Below, piece by piece: positions 1 to 22,452 of a DNA stretch of 25,073 nucleotides (the first letter of the stretch is position 1; every line of letters begins with the position of its first letter). Source of the DNA: a virus; IMG/VR virus record IMGVR_UViG_3300025655_000267, positions 1 to 25,073 of that record. One strand, 5' to 3'. The position numbers and the translations under genes are program-made. A model generated the notes under the pieces. The model saw only the letters and a list, made by a program, of their open reading frames with translations, was not told where the DNA came from and did no database searches.

Positions 1-822
1 GGCCACCATCCCCTCATACACCCGCCAGAGGCTCTCCAATTCGCTCTGCAGGCGCTCTGGGGGCGGCAGGAAAGGCGACTCGCGGTACAAGTCCACAAGG
101 CGCCCGAAAATCATGCGGGCCATCTTGTCTTCGCGACCGTCCGTGAGCATGCCGAAAGCATTCGTGGACGTCGCCTGAGCCCCAGACAACGTCCCTGCAG
201 CGCTCAATGGCGTCACCTGAGGCTTCGTCTGTAGTAACTCGTCAATCGCTTCACAGAGGCCCTGAGGGGCTTCGGCGATTTCCTGCTCCCACGGCGCTCG
301 ATTGGGGAGCCACTGGTAAGCACCGCCAGACTCGTGGATCGAGGGCGGGAGGACCGCAAAGCCGCCCTGCCCACGGATATCGATACCGAGGCTCGACTTG
401 CCTGTGGGGGGCGTCCACCCCGCTGGAGCCTTGAAAAGATACTGCAGGCCCCCTCCCCCTGTACGCTGGCAGGGCGTTGGGAAGTCCTTCCCGTCAGTGA
501 CTCGATCCTTCAGGGCCGCAAGCCACGTCTCGGCGAGCGGGATCTTTTGGATGTCCGCATCGAGAATGAAAAGGCCGCCGGAGGCGGACCCTGTCACCAT
601 GCCGATATTGCTGCTGTTGGCGTACCGAGCACCGTGCCCAAACCAAGACTCGAACTGGGCGTCCGAGACAAGGGCGCTCTCGAAGTCCCGCCATGGAATG
701 GCAGGGCGCTTCCAATTCTTGGGGTCCGTTAACGGCGAATGGCCCGGCACCACTTGAATACCGAGGGCCCTGTATGTGCGGGCGTAATCGACGGGCCCCG
801 CAAAATCTGGATCAAAATTCAT
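1..822 (-). CDS. Bifunctional primase-polymerase (PrimPol) N-terminal domain, cut by window edge
   Basis: The reading frame stays open from an ATG at 822 to the left edge (274 codons, no stop), so the C-terminus lies outside the window. The product matches the prim-pol family of archaeo-eukaryotic-type primases, which make primers and extend DNA during phage or plasmid replication. Visible motifs are NIGMVTG (res 72-78), the metal-binding LDAD (D88 and D90), the QRTGGGGLQYLFKAP segment (119-133) and IDIRGQGGFAVLPPSIH (147-163) ending in the conserved His. These appear in the family's order and spacing. A helicase domain could follow outside the window; this is inference. An in-frame ATG at 837 would add five residues but has no ribosome site. 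The ATG at 822 has only a weak GGGAATCGAG upstream. It is the last visible gene of the leftward operon, 169 bp after the RuvC-like gene. Confidence 0.9.
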   Translation of the reverse strand, partial: MNFDPDFAGPVDYARTYRALGIQVVPGHSPLTDPKNWKRPAIPWRDFESALVSDAQFESWFGHGARYANSSNIGMVTGSASGGLFILDADIQKIPLAETWLAALKDRVTDGKDFPTPCQRTGGGGLQYLFKAPAGWTPPTGKSSLGIDIRGQGGFAVLPPSIHESGGAYQWLPNRAPWEQEIAEAPQGLCEAIDELLQTKPQVTPLSAAGTLSGAQATSTNAFGMLTDGREDKMARMIFGRLVDLYRESPFLPPPERLQSELESLWRVYEGMVA

Positions 823-991: not shown

Positions 992-1477
992 TTAACCTTC
1001 ACTCCAAAGCCGAGAACAGTAAAGTGCGATCAGGGCTGCATCGCTGCGCCCGTCATCCTTCTTACGCTTGAACTGGTCAGCATACCTCGGGAAGGTCCTG
1101 ATGGCGCACTCTCTCGAGCCATCCTTGCCAGCACGAACCCCAAACATCTTTTGCCAAGCCTGCGGCGATGCAAAGTGTGTGGGGATTTCGTAGGCGGCCA
1201 AGACGCCCTCAATGATTCCAGCGCTCTTGCCAAAGCTGAAGACGGACGTCACCCCTTGGTTCGGCATAGCGCCCACTCTCTCAACGATTGCGACCTCGAT
1301 CCCTCGCCCCGCAACGATCCCCGCAACAAGGGCAGCCGAGACCTCGCGCTTTGTCTTGCCGTTTCGCGTGACTTCCGTGACCGGCATGTCGATGATCTCG
1401 AGCGACTTGTCTTGCGAGTTGTAAAAGGCAAACGCTCCGCCGAGGCCCGGGTCCACGCCCAAAAATATCGTGCTCAT
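992..1477 (-). CDS. RuvC-like Holliday junction resolvase
   Basis: A 161-residue protein of the RuvC/RNase H-like fold, the usual size for phage resolvases. It would cut four-way or branched DNA during replication, recombination or packaging. Visible catalytic-type motifs are GVDPGLGG at residues 7-14 (acidic D9 on the first strand), IVERVG at 64-69 (E66) and the C-terminal KKDDGRSDAALIALY (D142, D146). All four acidic positions expected for metal-dependent cleavage seem present. The start ATG at 1477 overlaps the stop of the preceding gene by four bases (ATGA), so translation is probably coupled. Neighbours are PrimPol downstream and small phage genes upstream, consistent with a DNA-replication cluster. 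Whether it prefers Holliday junctions or other branched DNA cannot be read from the sequence. Confidence 0.9.
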   Translation of the reverse strand: MSTIFLGVDPGLGGAFAFYNSQDKSLEIIDMPVTEVTRNGKTKREVSAALVAGIVAGRGIEVAIVERVGAMPNQGVTSVFSFGKSAGIIEGVLAAYEIPTHFASPQAWQKMFGVRAGKDGSRECAIRTFPRYADQFKRKKDDGRSDAALIALYCSRLWSEG

Positions 1478-1673: not shown

Positions 1674-2531
1674 TCATTCCTCTGATAAGTAAAGGCCATA
1701 ATTATTAACCTTCGGCATACTCGATGTATCAACAACCTTGATCAATCTATTCTTTTTGAAAGGCGAATAGTCAACGTGATGATGCCATCGGTTAAATCTA
1801 AAAACCACTTTCGCAACGTCAGGGTGCAAGTCCTGAAGCATTTGACTTTTCGGGAGCGTCCCTTCTGTATCGTAAAAGTCTCCACTGTTTCCCCCGCGCA
1901 TTCTCTGCGTTGTGGTCTTACCGCATAAAAAAGCATTGAACTGAATCGTGCAGTGACCATCCCTTAAGACGCGCAGACTCAAATCCGTATCCTCGTTATA
2001 CCGTGCTCGCCATCGATACCCTGATGCATTCTCTATCAGCAGGCAGCTATAGATGCGCGTATTCAAAATGTAGGGAGGGACTGCATCTGTCTTCTTGCAA
2101 AATGAATAGTAATTCAGGCCTGCCACGGGGACGTTCGCATACCTGTCAACAAAATCCTCTGATGCCCTGAGCGTAGCGCCCGTCCTCACTTCAAACTTTT
2201 CATTGCGGTTCAGGTAATGGAAGGCATCGATGTTATCGTCCATGACCCAGTGCCGTTTGTGATCCTTGCTATGGTCGATGCAGAAGTTGCGCGCAGGGCC
2301 CGGCCCCGTGCTCTTCCCCAAACCAAACTCATCGCACGTCTCGTACGTTGTTTTGTATTCCTTCGGAAGCACCAGCAATTCCCCATGGCACCGGCCTTTT
2401 CTGTACAGGTCCAATTCCTGCTCCTCAACCACAATGAAGTGAGGAACCCCCATCTCGTGCAGGGCTCGAGTTGTCAGGCCATTTTCGCTACGGCCTTTTG
2501 AAACAATGTAAACGGGATATCTAGGATTCAT
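1674..2531 (-). CDS. TAGT-like (TET-associated) family glycosyltransferase
   Basis: A 285-residue GT-A-type glycosyltransferase. It opens with PVYIVSKGRS (res 6-15), followed by a G-rich GPGPARNF (76-83), the metal/nucleotide-sugar motif WVMDDNID (95-102, equivalent to DxD) and YNEDTDLSLRVL (178-189), then a Thr/Gly-rich segment near 206-216. This order matches the TET-associated glycosyltransferase family, which was described by comparative genomics of phages that oxidise and then glycosylate DNA bases. The product could therefore add a sugar to a modified base, protecting phage DNA from restriction. No TET/JBP dioxygenase, DNA methylase or hydroxymethylase is visible in this window, so the acceptor is unproven and may not be DNA. 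The start ATG lies 11 bp inside the upstream partner gene. Confidence is high for glycosyltransferase, moderate for the TAGT family, low for the substrate. Confidence 0.82.
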   Translation of the reverse strand: MNPRYPVYIVSKGRSENGLTTRALHEMGVPHFIVVEEQELDLYRKGRCHGELLVLPKEYKTTYETCDEFGLGKSTGPGPARNFCIDHSKDHKRHWVMDDNIDAFHYLNRNEKFEVRTGATLRASEDFVDRYANVPVAGLNYYSFCKKTDAVPPYILNTRIYSCLLIENASGYRWRARYNEDTDLSLRVLRDGHCTIQFNAFLCGKTTTQRMRGGNSGDFYDTEGTLPKSQMLQDLHPDVAKVVFRFNRWHHHVDYSPFKKNRLIKVVDTSSMPKVNNYGLYLSEE

Positions 2532-2757
2532 CGCTGCGGTAAACCTTTCGGTGCAACCCCCAATGCGATTTGAAAGGGTGCCAAATACTTTTGGTTTTCA
2601 GGGTCAGCTTTTGATCAATCAGCTTTGCAAAATCCTGATAATCCGTCTCCGATTCAAATCGGACAATCAGGGTTTTGTAAGGCTCCTTTTTTTCTTGCAC
2701 AAATTCTGGCATCCCCACCCACTCTGGGTATTCATCAAAAAGCTTTCGATCCTTCAT
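2521..2757 (-). CDS. Small conserved protein paired with the glycosyltransferase
   Basis: A 78-residue protein starting at the ATG at 2757, which shares one base with the upstream stop (TGATG). A longer frame reaching to 2805 would run into the upstream gene. Its core is MPEFVQEKKEP, then an alpha-beta stretch (TLIVRFESETDYQDFAKLI), then LTLKTKSIWHPF. I recognise the pattern MPEF-QE...VRF...D...FA.LI.Q..T.KTKSIW.P from phage genomes, where it sits beside glycosyltransferase, ParB-like or methylase genes. I know of no assigned function. It overlaps the glycosyltransferase by 11 bp, which suggests co-production and possibly a shared role such as DNA recognition for modification; that is inference. 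Confidence 0.75.
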   Translation of the reverse strand: MKDRKLFDEYPEWVGMPEFVQEKKEPYKTLIVRFESETDYQDFAKLIDQKLTLKTKSIWHPFKSHWGLHRKVYRSDES

Positions 2758-3484: not shown

Positions 3485-4000
3485 CTATGGGTTCCAGTAG
3501 TAGTAAGTGACACCTTTGATATCAATCGAGGAGTAATCGACCAGCATTTCTTTGGCGGTCTTTTCCCAATCGATATGAATCCAAGGCGGGAGGTCGCCCT
3601 TGAAGTATCCGCAATCGATAAGTAATTCTTTTGCGTAATCAGTGAAATGGTAATCAGCAATGAGAATGGGCGGATACCAATCACCGCGCCACTGCTCATC
3701 CCCGCTATCGCCCTTGAGTTCCTCGAGGATAGCCTTGAGGCGAGCGAATTCGCCTATGTTGTCCAACTCCCAAGAAGATTTAACCTGCAGGGCTCGTGCA
3801 TTGGCAGCGGTGACTGTCGCTTCGGTCTCGTGCACGCCAGCTATAATTTCCCAGCGCCCATCGACCTGACTCGACAAAAACTCGGCAACGTGATCTCGAG
3901 CGGCAGCCACGGCGTCATCATGGAAGTTCTTCTCAAGTTCCAATTCTTCGTAACGTTCGATGACGTCGCGAATATCAACAATGTTATCTTTGAATAGCAT
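3485..4000 (-). CDS. Conserved phage/plasmid-type protein with ArdA-like C-terminal pattern
   Basis: A 171-residue acidic protein. Residues about 1-60 are helical with a repeated Glu/Asp pattern. The C-terminal third reads DYHFTDYAKELLIDCGYF, then PPWIHIDWEKTAKEML, then DYSSIDIKGVTYYYW. This YA.EL..D.G...W...IDWE..A..L..DY...D..G..Y arrangement is a conserved module in phage and plasmid proteins. It resembles the C-terminal part of ArdA-type antirestriction proteins, which mimic DNA through surface acidic residues. The similarity is distant and rests on pattern, so an antirestriction role is only a hypothesis. The start at 4000 is supported by AGAGGT seven bases upstream. Confidence 0.75.
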   Translation of the reverse strand: MLFKDNIVDIRDVIERYEELELEKNFHDDAVAAARDHVAEFLSSQVDGRWEIIAGVHETEATVTAANARALQVKSSWELDNIGEFARLKAILEELKGDSGDEQWRGDWYPPILIADYHFTDYAKELLIDCGYFKGDLPPWIHIDWEKTAKEMLVDYSSIDIKGVTYYYWNP

Positions 4001-5963: not shown

Positions 5964-6659
5964 TCAGGCCCCCTCCTCGGGGGCCGTCTCGCTGATGAAC
6001 TTCGGTCGGGCGATGATGGTTTGCTTCACGCCCTCACGCTCGCCATGGGCCTTGACGGTCGCTTTGATGACGAACCGCCAGCCCTTGTCGAGGCCATGGC
6101 TGCCCTTGTACACAATCACGTTGCCCGCCTCATCGCGGCAGATGTTGATGTAGGTGACACCGTAGTGGCCCTCGAACGAAAAAGACTTCTCACAGAGCAC
6201 CGAGAACTCGCGGCGCTCGCCAACGGCACCAACATGGGCGCTACCAGCACGGTCGGCCTCGAGGCGCTCTTCGCGACGCTGGGCGGCACGGGCAAGACGC
6301 TCCTCGGCACGGGCCAACGCACGACGAACGAGGTCGGTCTGCTTGTCGGTCAGACCACCCCACTCATCCAACGCATCGCGCATCTCGAGTAGCACTTTAC
6401 CGAAGTCACCATCGAAAATGCCCTTGCGCAGTGGGTGTTCGCTTACGAAGTTACCTTCGTCGTCGTATATGGTCTTGAACTCACCACAGGTGTTCAACCA
6501 GTCATAAAGACGGCGTGCGTCGGCGTGCTGCTCGAACCACTTGATGCGACGGGTCTTGCTGGCATTCTGCTTAATCCTGTTACGGATTGCAGCTTCGTAC
6601 GCAGCAGGGTGCTCGATGCGGTCATCCATGTGGGCGTTTCGTACTTTGATTCGTGACAT
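5964..6659 (-). CDS. Conserved phage protein with OB-like C-terminal domain, possible ssDNA-binding role
   Basis: A 231-residue protein and the first gene of the leftward operon. The N-terminal half is helical and very charged, with RRALARAEERLARAAQRREERLEADRAG forming a probable coiled coil (split over about res 112-140). The C-terminal half begins HVGAVGERREFSVLC and continues through strands FEGHYGVTYINICRDEAGN, VIVYKGS and FVIKATVKAHGEREGVKQTII. GERREF..., YG.T...D..GN and the final TVKAHGER.GVKQT form an OB-like pattern shared by many phage proteins, so ssDNA or RNA binding is plausible. No catalytic residues are seen. The ATG at 6659 has AGGAG eight bases upstream and lies about 40 bp downstream of the predicted promoter. 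Confidence 0.75.
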   Translation of the reverse strand: MSRIKVRNAHMDDRIEHPAAYEAAIRNRIKQNASKTRRIKWFEQHADARRLYDWLNTCGEFKTIYDDEGNFVSEHPLRKGIFDGDFGKVLLEMRDALDEWGGLTDKQTDLVRRALARAEERLARAAQRREERLEADRAGSAHVGAVGERREFSVLCEKSFSFEGHYGVTYINICRDEAGNVIVYKGSHGLDKGWRFVIKATVKAHGEREGVKQTIIARPKFISETAPEEGA

Positions 6660-15934: not shown

Positions 15935-18304
15935 CTAAATCGCTTTGTCAGCTATCTCAAGTGCCTTTGCTACATGATCATCATGAACATCTAAAAAGTC
16001 TTGCGTGCTCGAGCTATTGTGCTTCTTTGCCGCCTCAGCCGCATTCATCAATTTACCAACAAGGCCGCCCACTGAGACGCCCACCTTGCCGCCCGTTGCT
16101 CGAGCCGTTCTACCGCCAGCCTGCATCGTGCGCTGCCCGAAAATCTTCCTGACATAGTCTTGCGTCTCTCGTGGCAAGAAGTTCAGGAAGGACTCGCCAG
16201 ATTCCGCTGCATCCCTTAGGGCGCGCCTTACCGCAGCCGGTCCCGCATTATACGCAGCAGCAGCCTGCATGGGATCGCCGAAGCTGCGCAGTTGCTCTTC
16301 AAAGTACGCACGCCCTAAGGCGGCGTTGTACTCGGCATCATTTCGCAGTCTGTTCTCATCGTAAGGGAGACCAGCAAGACGGGCTGCCTCAGGAGCCGTA
16401 GTGGGCATCACTTGAGCAATGCCAAGCGCCCCAGCCGAGGAAGTCAGGACGTTGCCCTGACTGTCAAATTGGCGCTTATTGCTCTCAACCTGAAGCATGC
16501 GGTCAAAGATTTGAGATGTAGAGGCGTTGTCTTGCCGGACAGGCATACCAACAGAGCCCACCGTAGTAGTGCCCTCAGGGCGTGCAGCCTCTTCCTCGAC
16601 GCGACCAGCATAATATCCCGTTGTCGTGACGGGCCTACTTGTAATTGTCTCTCCAGCCTTTGCGGCGCGCCCAATCATCTGCTGAGTTTTAGCCGCAAGC
16701 CGTGGCGATGAAATAGCGGCTTGCCCCACCACCAAAGCGGGATTGACGCCAAAAGCTAAAGGCGCAAGACCGGCATTGGCAATGTAAGCTTTTAATCCGC
16801 CCGGCAAGATATCTTTAAGCTCCTGCCCCGCAAGCATGTATGGAATTTCAGGCTCTAGCTTTGAAAGCTCATCTAAAAGAGTTTTCTTTGTTGTATTGTC
16901 TTTTGTAGCAAGAATTCTGCGCAAAACAGATTCGTCTGCAACGCCTCTCCTGCCAAGACCAAAAGCAGACCTCATGTCTGCTAATTCTTTGCTAGCGGTT
17001 GAATAAGCTTCCATGGCTTTTGCATATTCGGGGTGCGCATTTTTAATAGAATTCAAGACAGAGTTATACATATCTGTCGCAATTCCATGAGCCACAGGAT
17101 TTTGGCGGGCAGCATCCCCTACTTCGCCAATATATCTCTTTAGTGCATCAAAGCCTTCCAGCGTATGTGCATTTGATCCAAGAGGCTGATTCTTGAAAAA
17201 ATCTACAGCTTTTTGAATTTCGTCCGCAACTTCTTGCGCTTGTCGATACATTGTAAATTGAGGACCAGCTACTCCTGTAGGACCTCTAACCTGAAAGCTA
17301 ATCTTCTGAAGATTTGCTTTCATAGCATTGTCGACAGAGTTCCAAGGCAATTGAGGCAATTGCCCTCCTTTTAATTTGGCAATGTCATCAACGTATTGAG
17401 CACCTCTTTGAGCGGAAAGTTGTCTTAAAGCGCTTTGAGCTTTTTCAACAATTTCCGTCGCATCGGCTCCTTTAAGATGACTCTCAAAAGCTTTTTTGAG
17501 GAGAGGATTTGAAGTTCTTCCGGCCTCTTGCGCTGTTTTTAAAGCATTTACAGAAGAGCCGCTAGGAACAGATTGAATGTAAGGGGCAGCTTTTCGTACT
17601 AAACTTACAGGCGCCTTGGCAGCTTTTACAGCCAGCGAAATAGGATCAGTCGCAGCACTAACTTTTCCAAGAGCAGACGCTGTTCGTTGAAGACCAGCAC
17701 CTTTTGCTGCTAATCCAGCGCCGCCTAATAACGTGCTGGCATCCATTAAAATGCTGACGGGATCTTCTGCAAATGCTTTTTTGAAGCCAGACGTATCGCC
17801 GCGAAGCAAGCCGCCGTAAATATTCGAGTAATGCTCGCCGAGAGCATTTGCCAATCTTTCGGTTTGTGCTTTTTCTTCAGGGTCTTGCTCGATACCTACT
17901 GCGCCAGCAACTTTTGAAGCTATTCCTTCGCCAAGCTGTCCAATAGCCTTTGCTGTTTGCACAGGGCTTGTAAAAACGCCCACCAAAGCTCGCCCTGCTT
18001 CCAAGGCGCTCGGCACAAAACTTTCGGCAGCCTGACGTCCAGTCTCCCCCCAAGTTAATTCAGGCTCAGGGGGAGCCGAGGGCTCAGGAAGAGGGGGAGG
18101 TTCAGCAGCCCTTTGAAAACGAGTTTCTGCGACGCGAGCGCCGGGCCGTGTAACCTCAGTAGATACAGCAGGCGCAGGAGCAGCCGCCCTCGAGATAACA
18201 TACCGATCCATGATGGGACCAGTCCGAGGGGCTTCAGGCGGGCGCTCCTCGGGAGCCTCTCTTTGAGGCGCTACCTGATAACGGCCAAGGATGCTCTCTG
18301 CCAT
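15935..18304 (-). CDS. Large virion/ejection protein with C-terminal lytic transglycosylase (SLT) domain
   Basis: A 789-residue protein. Residues 1-85 are Pro/Arg/Ala-rich and disordered, and residues about 85-560 are helical with Ala/Lys/Glu-rich coils. The domain at about res 595-720 carries MLQVESNKRQFDSQGN with catalytic Glu in VES, SAGALGIAQVMPTTAPEAA and AAAYNAGPAAVRRAL. These are the E, GxxQ and AYNAG motifs of goose-type/SLT (GH23) transglycosylases. Long virion proteins of this type (such as T7 gp16) are injected and open peptidoglycan for genome entry. That the domain lies near the C-terminus rather than at the N-terminus (as in gp16) is unusual but not unique. It ends with a His/Asp-rich tail (DVHDDH). 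Confidence 0.85.
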   Translation of the reverse strand: MAESILGRYQVAPQREAPEERPPEAPRTGPIMDRYVISRAAAPAPAVSTEVTRPGARVAETRFQRAAEPPPLPEPSAPPEPELTWGETGRQAAESFVPSALEAGRALVGVFTSPVQTAKAIGQLGEGIASKVAGAVGIEQDPEEKAQTERLANALGEHYSNIYGGLLRGDTSGFKKAFAEDPVSILMDASTLLGGAGLAAKGAGLQRTASALGKVSAATDPISLAVKAAKAPVSLVRKAAPYIQSVPSGSSVNALKTAQEAGRTSNPLLKKAFESHLKGADATEIVEKAQSALRQLSAQRGAQYVDDIAKLKGGQLPQLPWNSVDNAMKANLQKISFQVRGPTGVAGPQFTMYRQAQEVADEIQKAVDFFKNQPLGSNAHTLEGFDALKRYIGEVGDAARQNPVAHGIATDMYNSVLNSIKNAHPEYAKAMEAYSTASKELADMRSAFGLGRRGVADESVLRRILATKDNTTKKTLLDELSKLEPEIPYMLAGQELKDILPGGLKAYIANAGLAPLAFGVNPALVVGQAAISSPRLAAKTQQMIGRAAKAGETITSRPVTTTGYYAGRVEEEAARPEGTTTVGSVGMPVRQDNASTSQIFDRMLQVESNKRQFDSQGNVLTSSAGALGIAQVMPTTAPEAARLAGLPYDENRLRNDAEYNAALGRAYFEEQLRSFGDPMQAAAAYNAGPAAVRRALRDAAESGESFLNFLPRETQDYVRKIFGQRTMQAGGRTARATGGKVGVSVGGLVGKLMNAAEAAKKHNSSSTQDFLDVHDDHVAKALEIADKAI

Positions 18305-18309
18305 GGCGT

Positions 18310-21300
18310 TTACCTATTGAAGAAGTAACGCGAAAAGCCGGGCATGCCAAGCTCTTCATCAAGCTGACGAGGATCGACCGACCCAAGCAAGATATCGTCG
18401 ATCAAAGTTTTGCCTGTTTCAGGATCTTTGGCGCGGAGAATATCGTTCAAACGCTGGCGCTGACGCTCGTAGAACTGATCGTTGTAATCCGTTCTAAAGG
18501 CCAACTGCGCCTGAGCCGATTTGTACATGCCCGGCATTTCCGCAAGATTTTTGTACTCCTCGAGGTAGCGGGCAAGATCAAGCTGCTTTTGCTTGTCGAT
18601 GTACATGTTCCCAATGATTTCGAGGGCTGCTTCTTTGGGCATTCCGGGCCCCGGGATCGCTGCCGCAATTTGATCAAGGGCTTGCACGGCTCGCTGACCG
18701 GCGGCCTGAACGCCCTCAAACTGCAAAGCCGTTGCAAGCTTATTAGCAATGATGCTGCGATCAACATCCTCAGGAAGAATTCTAAATTGTTGAGGAACAC
18801 CAGCCGTATCCATCAAATCATTGAGGTAAGCGGCAACAGTCGTCTTCATCTGGTTCAGGGGGCCCGGGTCAAGGGGCCCGTCAAGCGCAGAAATTTGACG
18901 AGCAAGCTGGTTCAAGCTGGTGCCCGCTTCGGCTGCTGTAGATGCTCCGGCGAAAATGGCCTCTTCGTCCGCCACGGACTTCGCAATGAATTGATTGCGG
19001 ACTGTTTCCGGCATGGCAAGTAGCGCATCAGAATCCTCACGCGCTTTGGCAATGTTGGTTTCAGAAATCGATGGCGACCAACCGTAGCTTTTGACTGCTT
19101 TATCGCCCTGTGTTTCGGGCGCTTTGCCGGAGACGGTTGCCTCCTGAGGCGATGCAAGCGTCGTTGCCGCAGAAACGCTTGCGCCAGAAATGGGCTCAGC
19201 GCCCGGCAAGTTTTTGATGATGCCGGAGGCCTGCGCAGCGCCTGCGGTAGGCGGCTTGCCCATCTTGTGCCACTGAGAAAGCGTAACGACATTTCCGTCT
19301 GCGAGCATGACGTATGTGATGCCAGCGCGAACAAAGATTGCGTTTTGTGGAATCGTCTGCGCTTCTGCGCCAGTAAGAACGCGAGTCTGTTGGGTATCGG
19401 CTTGGGTCTTTTCGATGTCCGCCAATTGTTTGCGGATGTCGGTGTAAGACTTGGTTGCTGCACCGAGACCTGCGGCGAGCGCTACGCCCGGCAAGTAGGT
19501 CGGTGCCGTACCCATGGCAGCGATGCCGCTCAAAAGCGGAATCAAATTCTCAGGCTTGCTGAACGTAGTTCGCAAATCGCCAAAAGCTTGCCCAATACGC
19601 TCACCGCGAGTCGGCAAGACTCTTTGCGGGGGAGGCATGGGGAGGCCGCCAAGGCCTGCAGGGGGCTGCACAAAAGCAGGTAATTGAGCACCTGCTGCCA
19701 TGCCAGACAACCCCAAAGAAGTTGCAGGTGGAGGGGGAGTAGCTTGTGCCGCCCCTAATGCTGCTGCATCAGCCGCTGGCGCTGCAGGAGGAGTTGCGGC
19801 AACGCTAGCAGGCGGTGGTGCAGCGACGGGCTCAGGAGTGGTGCCCGTAGTGCCCGGCGCGGATGCCGCCGCCACGGCATCTCGCTGGGTAGGCGGAGCG
19901 AGACCCGGGCGACGGACTTCGTAATCACCGGAAGCATACCTTTGCATATCTTGTGGAATTTCGCGAAGGGTTCGTGCAATTCGATCAAAAAACCCTTCTT
20001 CCTCAAATGATCCTGAGGCGCCTCTGCCCCATCTCCCTGTCGCGCCCCTGTTCTCGCGAACAGAGCCATCGGTCTGATATCCATGACGAGCGCCGCCTCC
20101 CAAAGCTTTACCAGCAATAGATTGGGCGCTGCTGAGGATATCCAAAATTTGAGAGGCCTTATCCAAATCGGATTCTTGCTCGGGTAACTGCCCCGGCTTA
20201 GCCATCTCAAAACTTTGCAAGTCGGTCGGGATATCAAGCTTAGGCCCCTGAATCTTTTGCTCATACGGCATCACTTCGCCGCCCGAAGCTCGAGGACCTA
20301 CGATGCTAGAAGTCGGGGTTGCAGGAGGCGGAGCAGACTCTGCCTCACGCTGCTGTTTGCGCTTTTGATATTCCTGATACTTTTTATAGACGTTTGCACC
20401 AGCCTCACCGATTCGAGCGCTTTGCTCGAGCGTATCAAGCACGCTGGGCGGTTCAGGCAAGGCCCCTGCCGTGACAAGAGAGGAAACGGGAAGCGTACCT
20501 TGTGGGACGTACCCACCGCCCCCGCCCGGCAATCCGCCGGGTGCCGCCCCATATAGTCCGGCTTGGCTATAAGGCCCAAACATTTGAGCCTGCGCGGCAA
20601 GCAAAGCAGCCATATCGCTCGGTCCCGCAAGGCCCGGGCTACCGCCAGCCTGAAACCCTTGATACGCATCATCTTGGCTGACCGCACCGCCCATGGCGCC
20701 GCCCAAAGCTTTTTTGGCAGTTTCCTTATATTGGAAGCTGTACACCGGCTGGCCATCATGAAGTTCGCCGACTTTGCGCACGTTTTTCTTTGTGCGCCGG
20801 TCGGACATCGATGCAATCGTTGCAACAATTGTCGCAAGCTGCGCGGCCTGCTCGAGGCTTGGATCTTTGGCGGATACGCCGCCCGGCGCTTCGAGTTTCG
20901 GAGCGGCTTTGTTTTCTTGCGGAATCTCAATGCCTTTTTGTTCCGGCAGATCGACTTTTGCGGCTCCCACGGGAGGGGCGCCTGCGGGAGGCGTCATAGG
21001 CTTTGAAGCCTCAGCAACCGCCGCTTCAGCCTTGCGCTTTCGCTCTTCAGCTTCAGGATCAGCAGGGCCGCCTAAGGCGCGCTTGCGTGCAGCGTCTTCG
21101 GTCGCCTTGGCATAGTCGACCGTCTTGAAGCCGCCCATCTCGCCGACCGCCTCCGGCTTGACCTTCTCGACGTCCTGCGCCATGAGGCCAAGCTGGGTGC
21201 GCGGTTCGCCTTTGTATTTGAAGGCGTAGATCGGCTGGCCATCGTTGGTCTTGCCGACCTCGCGGACGTCTTCCTTGAGGCGCTTGTCGGAGAAAAACCC

Positions 21301-22452
21301 GCCCGGCTGCCGAGTGGTAGTGGTCGAGCCAGACAAGGAGCCCGTGCCCATGGCGATGTTCGCGAGGAACTGCGCCACTTGGAAGGGGTAGGAAAGGCCT
21401 TGCAGGTACTGGTTGTAGAGGGCCTGCAAGCCTGCCTGCTGAGTCTGCTGAGCCGCCTGACCGGCGCCAAGCTGAGCCTGAGCCCCTTGCAGAGCGGCCC
21501 CCTGAGCCCCTGCGCCGATTCCGGCGAGTTGCTGCGCGGTACCCGCCCCCATGCCATAGAGGCCCTGTCCGAGACCCTGCTGAGCCTGTGCGGCCTGTAG
21601 GGCCTGCTGGTATTGCTGCTGGCCAAGGCCTTGGTAGGCCTGACCGAGTCCCATACCCATGCCATATTGCTGCTGGGCGAGGCTGCCGAGTTGTCCGGCT
21701 GCCGCCAATTGTGCCGCCCTGTTCGCCTGAGCGGCCCCCAGACCGAGTTGCTGCTGTTGTTGGGCCGTCTGCAGGGCCTGCTGGTAACCGCCGCTGAAAA
21801 GGTTCGAGAGGACGTTACCGCGAGCCAGTTCCTGCTCACGGCCAAGGTTTGCCGCCGCAATACCCGCACGGTCTCCGCCAAAGGCGCCAGATCGAATGGC
21901 GGACCCGAGTTGCCCAGCCTGAGCAAGCTCAGACTCTCGGCGCATCAGATCCATGGTGCTACCGGCGACCGTCCCCAAGAAGGGGTTCATGTACTGCCCG
22001 ATTTGCTGGGCGCCAAGCTGGCCGGGCGTGACCGCCCCTGCGGCCCCTCCAGTCAGGGCGAGCGCTGCCTGCTGAGCAGGTTGGGCGGCCCCATAGGCGC
22101 CCCCAAAAGTCTGTCCAGCCTGCGTTCCAAGGGCGGCGCCAATATCCTGCCCCGCCGCAATATTTTGAGCGCCTGCCATATAAAAGGGCATGGCAGCCTG
22201 TTGGGCTCCGGCAAGTTGATATTGGGCGCCTGTGAAATAAGGCTGCGCTAATCCGGCAGCTTGATTGACGTTATAGATACCCGCCTGTTGGGTGGGAGTT
22301 AAGGGGGCGACAAAAGCTTCAGGGGCGAAGGAGTAAGGCTGGAATCCTTGCCCAGCAACCTGCTCGGCACGCGCATTAACGGCGTTATAACGAGCCAAAA
22401 CCTCTGGTGGGATTTGGACCGTTTGACTTGAGGTTGTACTTTTGCCGCCCAT
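18310..22452 (-). CDS. Very large virion protein with two internal S74-like chaperone segments
   Basis: A 1380-residue protein. Residues about 30-380 are very Gln/Ala/Gly-rich (QQQQQLGLG, AQAQQGLGQGL). At about 387-450 comes SDKRLKEDVREVGKTNDGQPIYAFKYKGEP...LGLMAQDVEKVKPEAV, the pattern of the Peptidase S74 intramolecular chaperone. A second copy, SDRRTKKNVRKVGELHDGQPVYSFQY, lies at about 547-580 but is truncated. Low-complexity Pro/Ala/Gly stretches follow to about residue 950, and then a helical C-terminal part to res 1380. Internal S74-like segments occur in virion proteins of many environmental podoviruses. As it precedes the transglycosylase protein, it is likely an internal virion or ejection protein. 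Function is inferred from position and length only. The start has GGGAG about nine bases before the ATG. Confidence 0.78.
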   Translation of the reverse strand: MGGKSTTSSQTVQIPPEVLARYNAVNARAEQVAGQGFQPYSFAPEAFVAPLTPTQQAGIYNVNQAAGLAQPYFTGAQYQLAGAQQAAMPFYMAGAQNIAAGQDIGAALGTQAGQTFGGAYGAAQPAQQAALALTGGAAGAVTPGQLGAQQIGQYMNPFLGTVAGSTMDLMRRESELAQAGQLGSAIRSGAFGGDRAGIAAANLGREQELARGNVLSNLFSGGYQQALQTAQQQQQLGLGAAQANRAAQLAAAGQLGSLAQQQYGMGMGLGQAYQGLGQQQYQQALQAAQAQQGLGQGLYGMGAGTAQQLAGIGAGAQGAALQGAQAQLGAGQAAQQTQQAGLQALYNQYLQGLSYPFQVAQFLANIAMGTGSLSGSTTTTRQPGGFFSDKRLKEDVREVGKTNDGQPIYAFKYKGEPRTQLGLMAQDVEKVKPEAVGEMGGFKTVDYAKATEDAARKRALGGPADPEAEERKRKAEAAVAEASKPMTPPAGAPPVGAAKVDLPEQKGIEIPQENKAAPKLEAPGGVSAKDPSLEQAAQLATIVATIASMSDRRTKKNVRKVGELHDGQPVYSFQYKETAKKALGGAMGGAVSQDDAYQGFQAGGSPGLAGPSDMAALLAAQAQMFGPYSQAGLYGAAPGGLPGGGGGYVPQGTLPVSSLVTAGALPEPPSVLDTLEQSARIGEAGANVYKKYQEYQKRKQQREAESAPPPATPTSSIVGPRASGGEVMPYEQKIQGPKLDIPTDLQSFEMAKPGQLPEQESDLDKASQILDILSSAQSIAGKALGGGARHGYQTDGSVRENRGATGRWGRGASGSFEEEGFFDRIARTLREIPQDMQRYASGDYEVRRPGLAPPTQRDAVAAASAPGTTGTTPEPVAAPPPASVAATPPAAPAADAAALGAAQATPPPPATSLGLSGMAAGAQLPAFVQPPAGLGGLPMPPPQRVLPTRGERIGQAFGDLRTTFSKPENLIPLLSGIAAMGTAPTYLPGVALAAGLGAATKSYTDIRKQLADIEKTQADTQQTRVLTGAEAQTIPQNAIFVRAGITYVMLADGNVVTLSQWHKMGKPPTAGAAQASGIIKNLPGAEPISGASVSAATTLASPQEATVSGKAPETQGDKAVKSYGWSPSISETNIAKAREDSDALLAMPETVRNQFIAKSVADEEAIFAGASTAAEAGTSLNQLARQISALDGPLDPGPLNQMKTTVAAYLNDLMDTAGVPQQFRILPEDVDRSIIANKLATALQFEGVQAAGQRAVQALDQIAAAIPGPGMPKEAALEIIGNMYIDKQKQLDLARYLEEYKNLAEMPGMYKSAQAQLAFRTDYNDQFYERQRQRLNDILRAKDPETGKTLIDDILLGSVDPRQLDEELGMPGFSRYFFNR

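Follow-up and report, generated by a model that had tools for sequence, protein, structure and literature searches.

The window analyzed here comprises the whole record, a linear virus fragment of 25,073 bases, and absences from the window alone weigh little. It harbors two overlapping minus-strand genes, one encoding a glycosyltransferase of the TAGT family (P0001) and the other encoding a small partner or adaptor protein (P0002). Their coordinates and those of their motifs and neighbors are given in Table 1. On the basis of the RuvC-like resolvase and the primase-polymerase nearby, the pair is placed in a replication/recombination region. The initial annotation had described an enzyme with SKGR, GPGPARN, DDN, and NEDTD motifs, a small protein with the pattern MPEF-QE...KTKSIW.P, and an 11-bp overlap between their genes, and all of these features are located at the locus. 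Neither open reading frame is judged to have arisen by chance, since P0001 matches PF20691 and phrog_842, and P0002 has more than 200 distinct relatives.

Table 1. Coordinates of the glycosyltransferase–partner module, its motifs, and its neighbors in the window.
Feature	Position	Strand	Remarks
Primase-polymerase	1..822	-	Neighbor outside the module; runs off the record; PF09250, E = 5.6e-25
RuvC-like Holliday junction resolvase	992..1477	-	Neighbor outside the module; phrog_1770, E = 4.7e-34
TAGT-family glycosyltransferase (P0001)	1674..2531	-	ATG start, 285 aa; PF20691 and phrog_842; catalytic subunit, predicted GT-A fold
NEDTD (P0001 residues 179–183)	1983..1997	-	Candidate catalytic-base motif; ED aligned in all ten TAGTs compared, T6 Ggt included
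DDN (P0001 residues 98–100)	2232..2240	-	Position of the DxD metal/nucleotide-sugar motif; aligns with DDD in T6 Ggt and branch 2
GPGPARN (P0001 residues 76–82)	2286..2306	-	AR pair invariant in branch-2 TAGTs too
SKGR (P0001 residues 11–14)	2490..2501	-	By position, start of the sugar-nucleotide binding half; aligns with SKSR (Aeh1) and HGR (branch 2)
Overlap of P0001 and P0002 genes	2521..2531	-	11 nt; similarly tight spacing in most relatives
Small partner/adaptor protein (P0002)	2521..2757	-	ATG start, 78 aa; no family in Pfam, PHROGs, or NCBIfam
KTKSIWHP (P0002 residues 54–61)	2575..2598	-	W and P invariant, K54, K56, and S57 at least 90% in 58 relatives
MPEF.Q (P0002 residues 16–21)	2695..2712	-	No variation at M, P, F, or Q among 58 aligned relatives

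The TAGT enzyme and its small partner

TAGT is the sole Pfam family that P0001 matches above cut-off (PF20691, residues 5–214, E = 5.5e-49, 167.3 bits against a curated cut-off of 27.5 bits), and the protein also matches phrog_842 in PHROGs (E = 3.8e-51). The profile search proposed as a check therefore upholds the original family assignment, placing the protein in TAGT and not in a capsid- or O-antigen-type glycosyltransferase family, none of which is its best match in Pfam. The DDN and NEDTD motifs of P0001 align with DDD/DDN and ED, respectively, in every other TAGT examined. The TAGT is predicted to be a catalytic subunit of GT-A fold, with the DxD-like and ED motifs of the family assigned by alignment and the fold modeled not on P0001 but on a compact fused homologue, L278 (355 aa; mean pLDDT 86, pTM 0.82). 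With the L278 model as the query, the top Foldseek match is TarP (E = 1.3e-5), and in VIA-align the Z scores against enzymes of the GT2 and GT27 types reach 14.3.

The partner, described from the outset as conserved but without an assigned function, indeed belongs to no family in Pfam, PHROGs, or NCBIfam, and nothing significant is found for it in the PDB. Weak matches to AAA_7 (0.007) and BTG2 (0.35) were rejected as chance. Residues W13, M16, P17, F19, Q21, Q49, W59, and P61 are invariant among 58 aligned relatives. The structural model of the partner is modest (mean pLDDT 79, pTM 0.50), and a fold search with this model alone returns zero matches.

The characterized member of the family is T6 Ggt (beta-glucosyl-HMC-alpha-glucosyltransferase), which adds a second glucose to alpha-glucosyl-hmC (PMC13390438, PMC13216743). 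T6 Ggt matches PF20691 (E = 1e-8), its DDD and ED motifs align with the window TAGT, and it has a GT-A fold (PMC13216743), like the fold predicted here. However, it lacks the partner domain, shows no BLASTP similarity to the window TAGT, sits on a long branch, and is encoded beside gp42. Closer relatives are found in Aeromonas phages 65 and Aeh1, whose TAGTs belong to the same PF20691 branch, are 52–65% identical to P0001, and carry the same partner domain, although it is fused to the enzyme in these phages and encoded by a separate gene in the window. A glucosyltransferase that Aeh1 has in common with phage 65, for which Aeh1p093 is the candidate, “presumably modifies DNA” at an “unknown base” (PMC8056088); the partner domain is not mentioned in the passages covered. 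A 2026 survey counted, among 753 phage genomes, 288 that have TAGT homologues but neither of the T4-type glucosyltransferases, and described these homologues as potentially novel transferases (PMC13216743).

Pairing, fusion, and ParB-like heads

The pairing was counted in two mutually independent searches, one with the TAGT alone and the other with the partner, using single sequences and profiles against virus contigs and genomes. The counts refer to the best 80 matches of each search, and most of the records are fragments. In virus contigs, the TAGT-only search finds the partner upstream in 79 of the best 80 loci. The eightieth locus has only 18 nt upstream before the contig ends, and another fetch of the same contig (L082) holds the partner. 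The partner searches yield at least 202 distinct partner domains. Among the 202 listed, the TAGT follows the partner directly in 170 cases (in 40 of which the partner is extended by a long N-terminal region), belongs to the same protein in 11, and is separated from the partner by one or two genes in 18; the remaining 3, all near contig ends, have no TAGT in view. The tabulation of gene adjacency that had been called for thus yields, at the level of gene order, a near-obligate pairing.

When the two are fused in relatives, the partner occupies the N terminus of the enzyme. Partner and TAGT form one protein in the cultured relatives examined, namely Vibrio phages 1.076.O and 1.124.O, Aeromonas phages 65 and Aeh1, Tenacibaculum phage PTm1, and Pectobacterium phage POP12, and both tandem TAGT copies of Vibrio phage Kuja are fused to the partner. 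The fused genes from virus contigs adjoin the clade of the window, as its sister group, in a tree built from 74 TAGTs. Because the two genes overlap or abut, are fused in close lineages, and almost always occur together, it is close to certain that partner and TAGT share a function. The tandem TAGT pair of Kuja (L281:4581-7266) has a DNA end protector gene next to it and ribonucleotide reductase genes in its vicinity.

The genes inserted between partner and TAGT encode small-molecule-type SAM methyltransferases (7), GT4 enzymes (2), another TAGT-like enzyme, and a radical SAM protein, as well as adenine-methylase-like proteins (5, recognized by sequence inspection). These insertions fit decoration of a sugar or a base, as if the same product were further decorated. 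Loci with inserted genes include L080, L126, L129, L156, L172, L189, L199, and L275.

The partner also occurs as the C-terminal domain of a ParB-like protein in 40–50 loci, and a ParB-like head is recognized in 48 of the 53 partner proteins with a long N-terminal extension. PF02195 is detected in the extended partners of L195 (5e-6) and L202 (1e-7). Against phrog_498, annotated as “DNA methyltransferase”, the head matches over the N-terminal part (about 20–173) at 1e-43 to 1e-53. Its matches in cultured phages are annotated mostly as adenine-specific methyltransferases or ParB proteins. In other phages the same head is fused to DNA N6/N4 methyltransferases, and a checked example harbors PF02195 and PF01555 in one protein. 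Since the head is common to methylase fusions and partner fusions, the modification enzyme behind it is, by this domain comparison, swapped, being a methylase in some phages and the partner with its TAGT in others. The ParB-headed methyltransferases of phrog_498 thus share their head with the extended partners; unlike in the TAGT pair, their catalytic part is a methyltransferase on the head’s own chain.

The partner had been proposed to act in target recognition. This proposal gains indirect support from the occurrence of the partner either fused to the TAGT or behind a head that other phages join to methyltransferases. In the window, P0002 is a stand-alone protein of 78 residues and carries no ParB-like head. 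An unusual chain is encoded at L202:3188-4522, directly upstream of a TAGT, and combines a GT32-type domain, a ParB-like head, and the partner domain.

A second TAGT branch and its adaptor

Following the ParB head leads to a second branch of TAGTs (PF20691, E = 1.1e-34), with members in E. coli Rac-type prophages, Lactobacillus phage phi jlb1, halovirus HHTV-2, Nocardia phage NTR1, and Vibrio phage pv27. Among the best 80 virus loci of this branch, 79 have a different small domain directly upstream of the TAGT, attached to a ParB head in 74 loci and alone in 5; the eightieth locus is truncated. Profile comparison of the first and second adaptors gives zero matches in either direction, and neither adaptor was found in the other’s loci among those examined. 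In the tree of 74 TAGTs, the adaptor type tracks the enzyme with the fewest possible changes, and the second branch has a support of 100/100.

The main new result is that each TAGT branch examined has, by profile and tree comparison, its own small adaptor, sometimes ParB-tethered. This amounts to a testable rule in which each such branch travels with its adaptor in one of three arrangements, the adaptor being a stand-alone protein, a part of the enzyme chain, or the portion that follows a ParB-like head. The second-branch pairs (ynaK with a “GREB1-related protein”, phi jlb1, HHTV-2, and NTR1) resemble the module of the window and its relatives in having a small conserved domain directly upstream of the TAGT and a ParB-like head, and several lie near terminase. 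In contrast, profile search detects no relation between their adaptor and P0002, and their TAGTs form a separate branch.

The TAGT itself, its solitary occurrence (PMC13216743), and a candidate role in DNA modification (PMC8056088) are already known. In the mostly open-access literature covered, neither the adaptor families nor the adaptor/ParB/TAGT rule was found to be described, although some of this context may have been reported elsewhere.

In E. coli Rac-type prophages, ynaK encodes the ParB head with the second small domain and is followed by a TAGT annotated as “GREB1-related protein” (L289:2995-4711, Escherichia phage vB_EcoS-473R12). Strains such as C600 match the pair over the first 254 bases only, corresponding to a ynaK remnant with ydaY. 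The ynaK–TAGT pair is present over at least 80% of its length in 885 of 5,426 complete E. coli genomes, which makes it testable in a laboratory host.

Acceptor and proposed mechanism

With modest confidence, the pair is proposed to be a two-part phage glycosyltransferase, in which a GT-A-fold TAGT is docked by its cognate adaptor on a substrate, most likely phage DNA, as a means of protection. The adaptor and the TAGT, made together from overlapping genes, would act as one functional unit, which is the well-supported step. The adaptor would most likely dock the enzyme on its substrate, as its fusions to the ParB head and to the enzyme suggest. The substrate would most likely be phage DNA, with the sugar added while the DNA is replicated or afterwards; the swap between methylase and partner behind the ParB head, the location among replication and terminase genes, and the activity of the family’s characterized member, T6 Ggt, all point in this direction. 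Protection from host nucleases is a general role of base modification in phage DNA, and the sugar may serve the same purpose here.

If the acceptor is DNA, a handle for the sugar could be supplied by either of two known routes. The initial annotation had envisaged that TET/JBP oxidizes 5-methylcytosine, which the TAGT then glycosylates, and it had noted, correctly, that no TET/JBP gene lies in the window; with a fragment of 25 kb, such a gene could lie beyond its ends. The name of the Pfam family, TET-associated, and the fragmentary nature of the record favor this route. However, it is highly improbable, as no TET/JBP gene rises above the curated cut-off in about 80 records of the window’s branch, many of which are fragments but which include complete genomes of 107–235 kb. 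The positive control of this search, the known TET phage Nigel at 4.2e-8, is itself under the curated cut-off, and two sub-threshold matches at 0.006–0.008 are at chance level. Moreover, a C5-methylase gene is found in 1 of 33 virus-contig records, with a weak match in Vibrio phage 1.124.O. The TET/JBP route is therefore rejected as a general explanation. In a T-even-type route, which is improbable as well, a gp42-like enzyme would provide a hydroxymethyl pyrimidine at the nucleotide level, and the TAGT would add the first or second sugar. This route draws on T6 Ggt, which shares the Pfam family and adjoins gp42, and on the presence of PF00303 (hydroxymethylase-type) genes in Kuja, henriette, 65, Aeh1, PTm1, and POP12, although these may be ordinary thymidylate synthases. 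Against it, PF00303 is present in 1 of the 33 virus-contig records and absent from the other 32, the window among them, as well as from Vibrio phages 1.076.O and 1.124.O, and the window, as a fragment, contains no dCMP hydroxymethylase gene. In addition, T6 Ggt has no partner domain and escapes BLASTP, and genes 42 and 56 as well as both T4 glucosyltransferase genes are missing from Aeh1 and 65 (PMC2993671). Petrov et al. considered major modification of dCMP improbable in those T4 relatives that are devoid of gene 42 and the network around it (PMC2993671). Vibrio phage 1.076.O (47.9 kb, deposited as a partial genome) lacks TET, PF00303, and C5-methylase alike, and the neighborhood survey found no third conserved enzyme beside the pair. 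Thus, with TET lacking, PF00303 and C5-methylase rare, and no conserved third gene, the known handles are not general. Nucleotide-level hydroxymethylation and C5-methylation were likewise rejected as a conserved handle because their genes are rare.

The main rival to a DNA acceptor is that the same two-part enzyme glycosylates a protein, be it of the capsid, of the tail, or of the host; the partner would then act as a peptide-recognition or chaperone subunit. Among solved structures, those nearest in fold include glycosyltransferases of GT2/GT27 type that act on proteins and polysaccharides, for example ppGalNAc-T2, although the fold does not tell the acceptor. The fused gene of 1.076.O lies between portal and head-morphogenesis genes, and no base-handle enzyme accompanies the pair. 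A relationship between TAGTs and GREB1 has been reported, and GREB1 is claimed to glycosylate proteins. A protein acceptor is nonetheless unlikely: in relatives the partner carries ParB-like heads of the DNA-methylase type, the commonest neighbors of the pair are terminase and replication/recombination genes and not capsid or tail genes, and T6 Ggt works on a DNA-linked sugar (PMC13390438). Another alternative, in which the acceptor is RNA or a small molecule (e.g., a tRNA base or an intermediate) and the ParB-like head is incidental, is quite improbable. The fused gene of phage 65 does lie beside a large tRNA cluster, and the absence of a conserved DNA handle enzyme is consistent with such an acceptor; however, tRNA clusters are not seen as a general neighbor, and the partner is linked to ParB and DNA methylases.

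Counted against the favored DNA acceptor are the lack of any conserved handle-making gene, the other roles that ParB-like heads can serve, the gene setting of 1.076.O, the reported GREB1 link, the modest model of the partner with its empty fold search, and the view of Petrov et al. For the two-part enzyme acting on DNA, a bolder and tentative proposal, itself doubtful, is that a widespread form of viral DNA glycosylation, in bacteriophages and a halovirus, may proceed without a hydroxymethyl-pyrimidine handle made by any known route. In such a scheme, a branch-specific adaptor, often tethered to the ParB-like head that phage DNA methylases share, would bring the GT-A enzyme to DNA, and the sugar would be placed on a base that carries no modification or on an as yet undescribed handle, possibly with a choice of sites.

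Should the substrate be DNA, a large number of marine, Vibrio, and Aeromonas phages, as well as many E. coli prophages, would carry an unrecognized DNA sugar. The database label “beta-glucosyl-HMC-alpha-glucosyltransferase” would then be misleading, since most of the genomes concerned show no sign of making HMC. This label, likely carried over from T6, has been put on TAGTs of phages with no evident hydroxymethylcytosine pathway in RefSeq records such as NC_015251, NC_005260, and NC_049340.

Elsewhere on the minus strand of the window, two genes encode uncharacterized proteins with relatives in PHROGs only, at 3485-4000 (phrog_25535) and at 5964-6659 (phrog_27218 and phrog_2319). A structural protein of 1,380 residues (18310-22452, minus strand) harbors a Peptidase_S74 chaperone domain in the middle of the chain, at residues 388–436, and a second S74-like stretch, recognized by eye, further on (SDRRTKKNVRKVGEL...); the usual arrangement is a single C-terminal copy. 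The 789-residue protein encoded at 15935-18304, also on the minus strand, carries, close to the C terminus, a transglycosylase domain of the SLT type (PF01464) and is probably an ejected virion protein.
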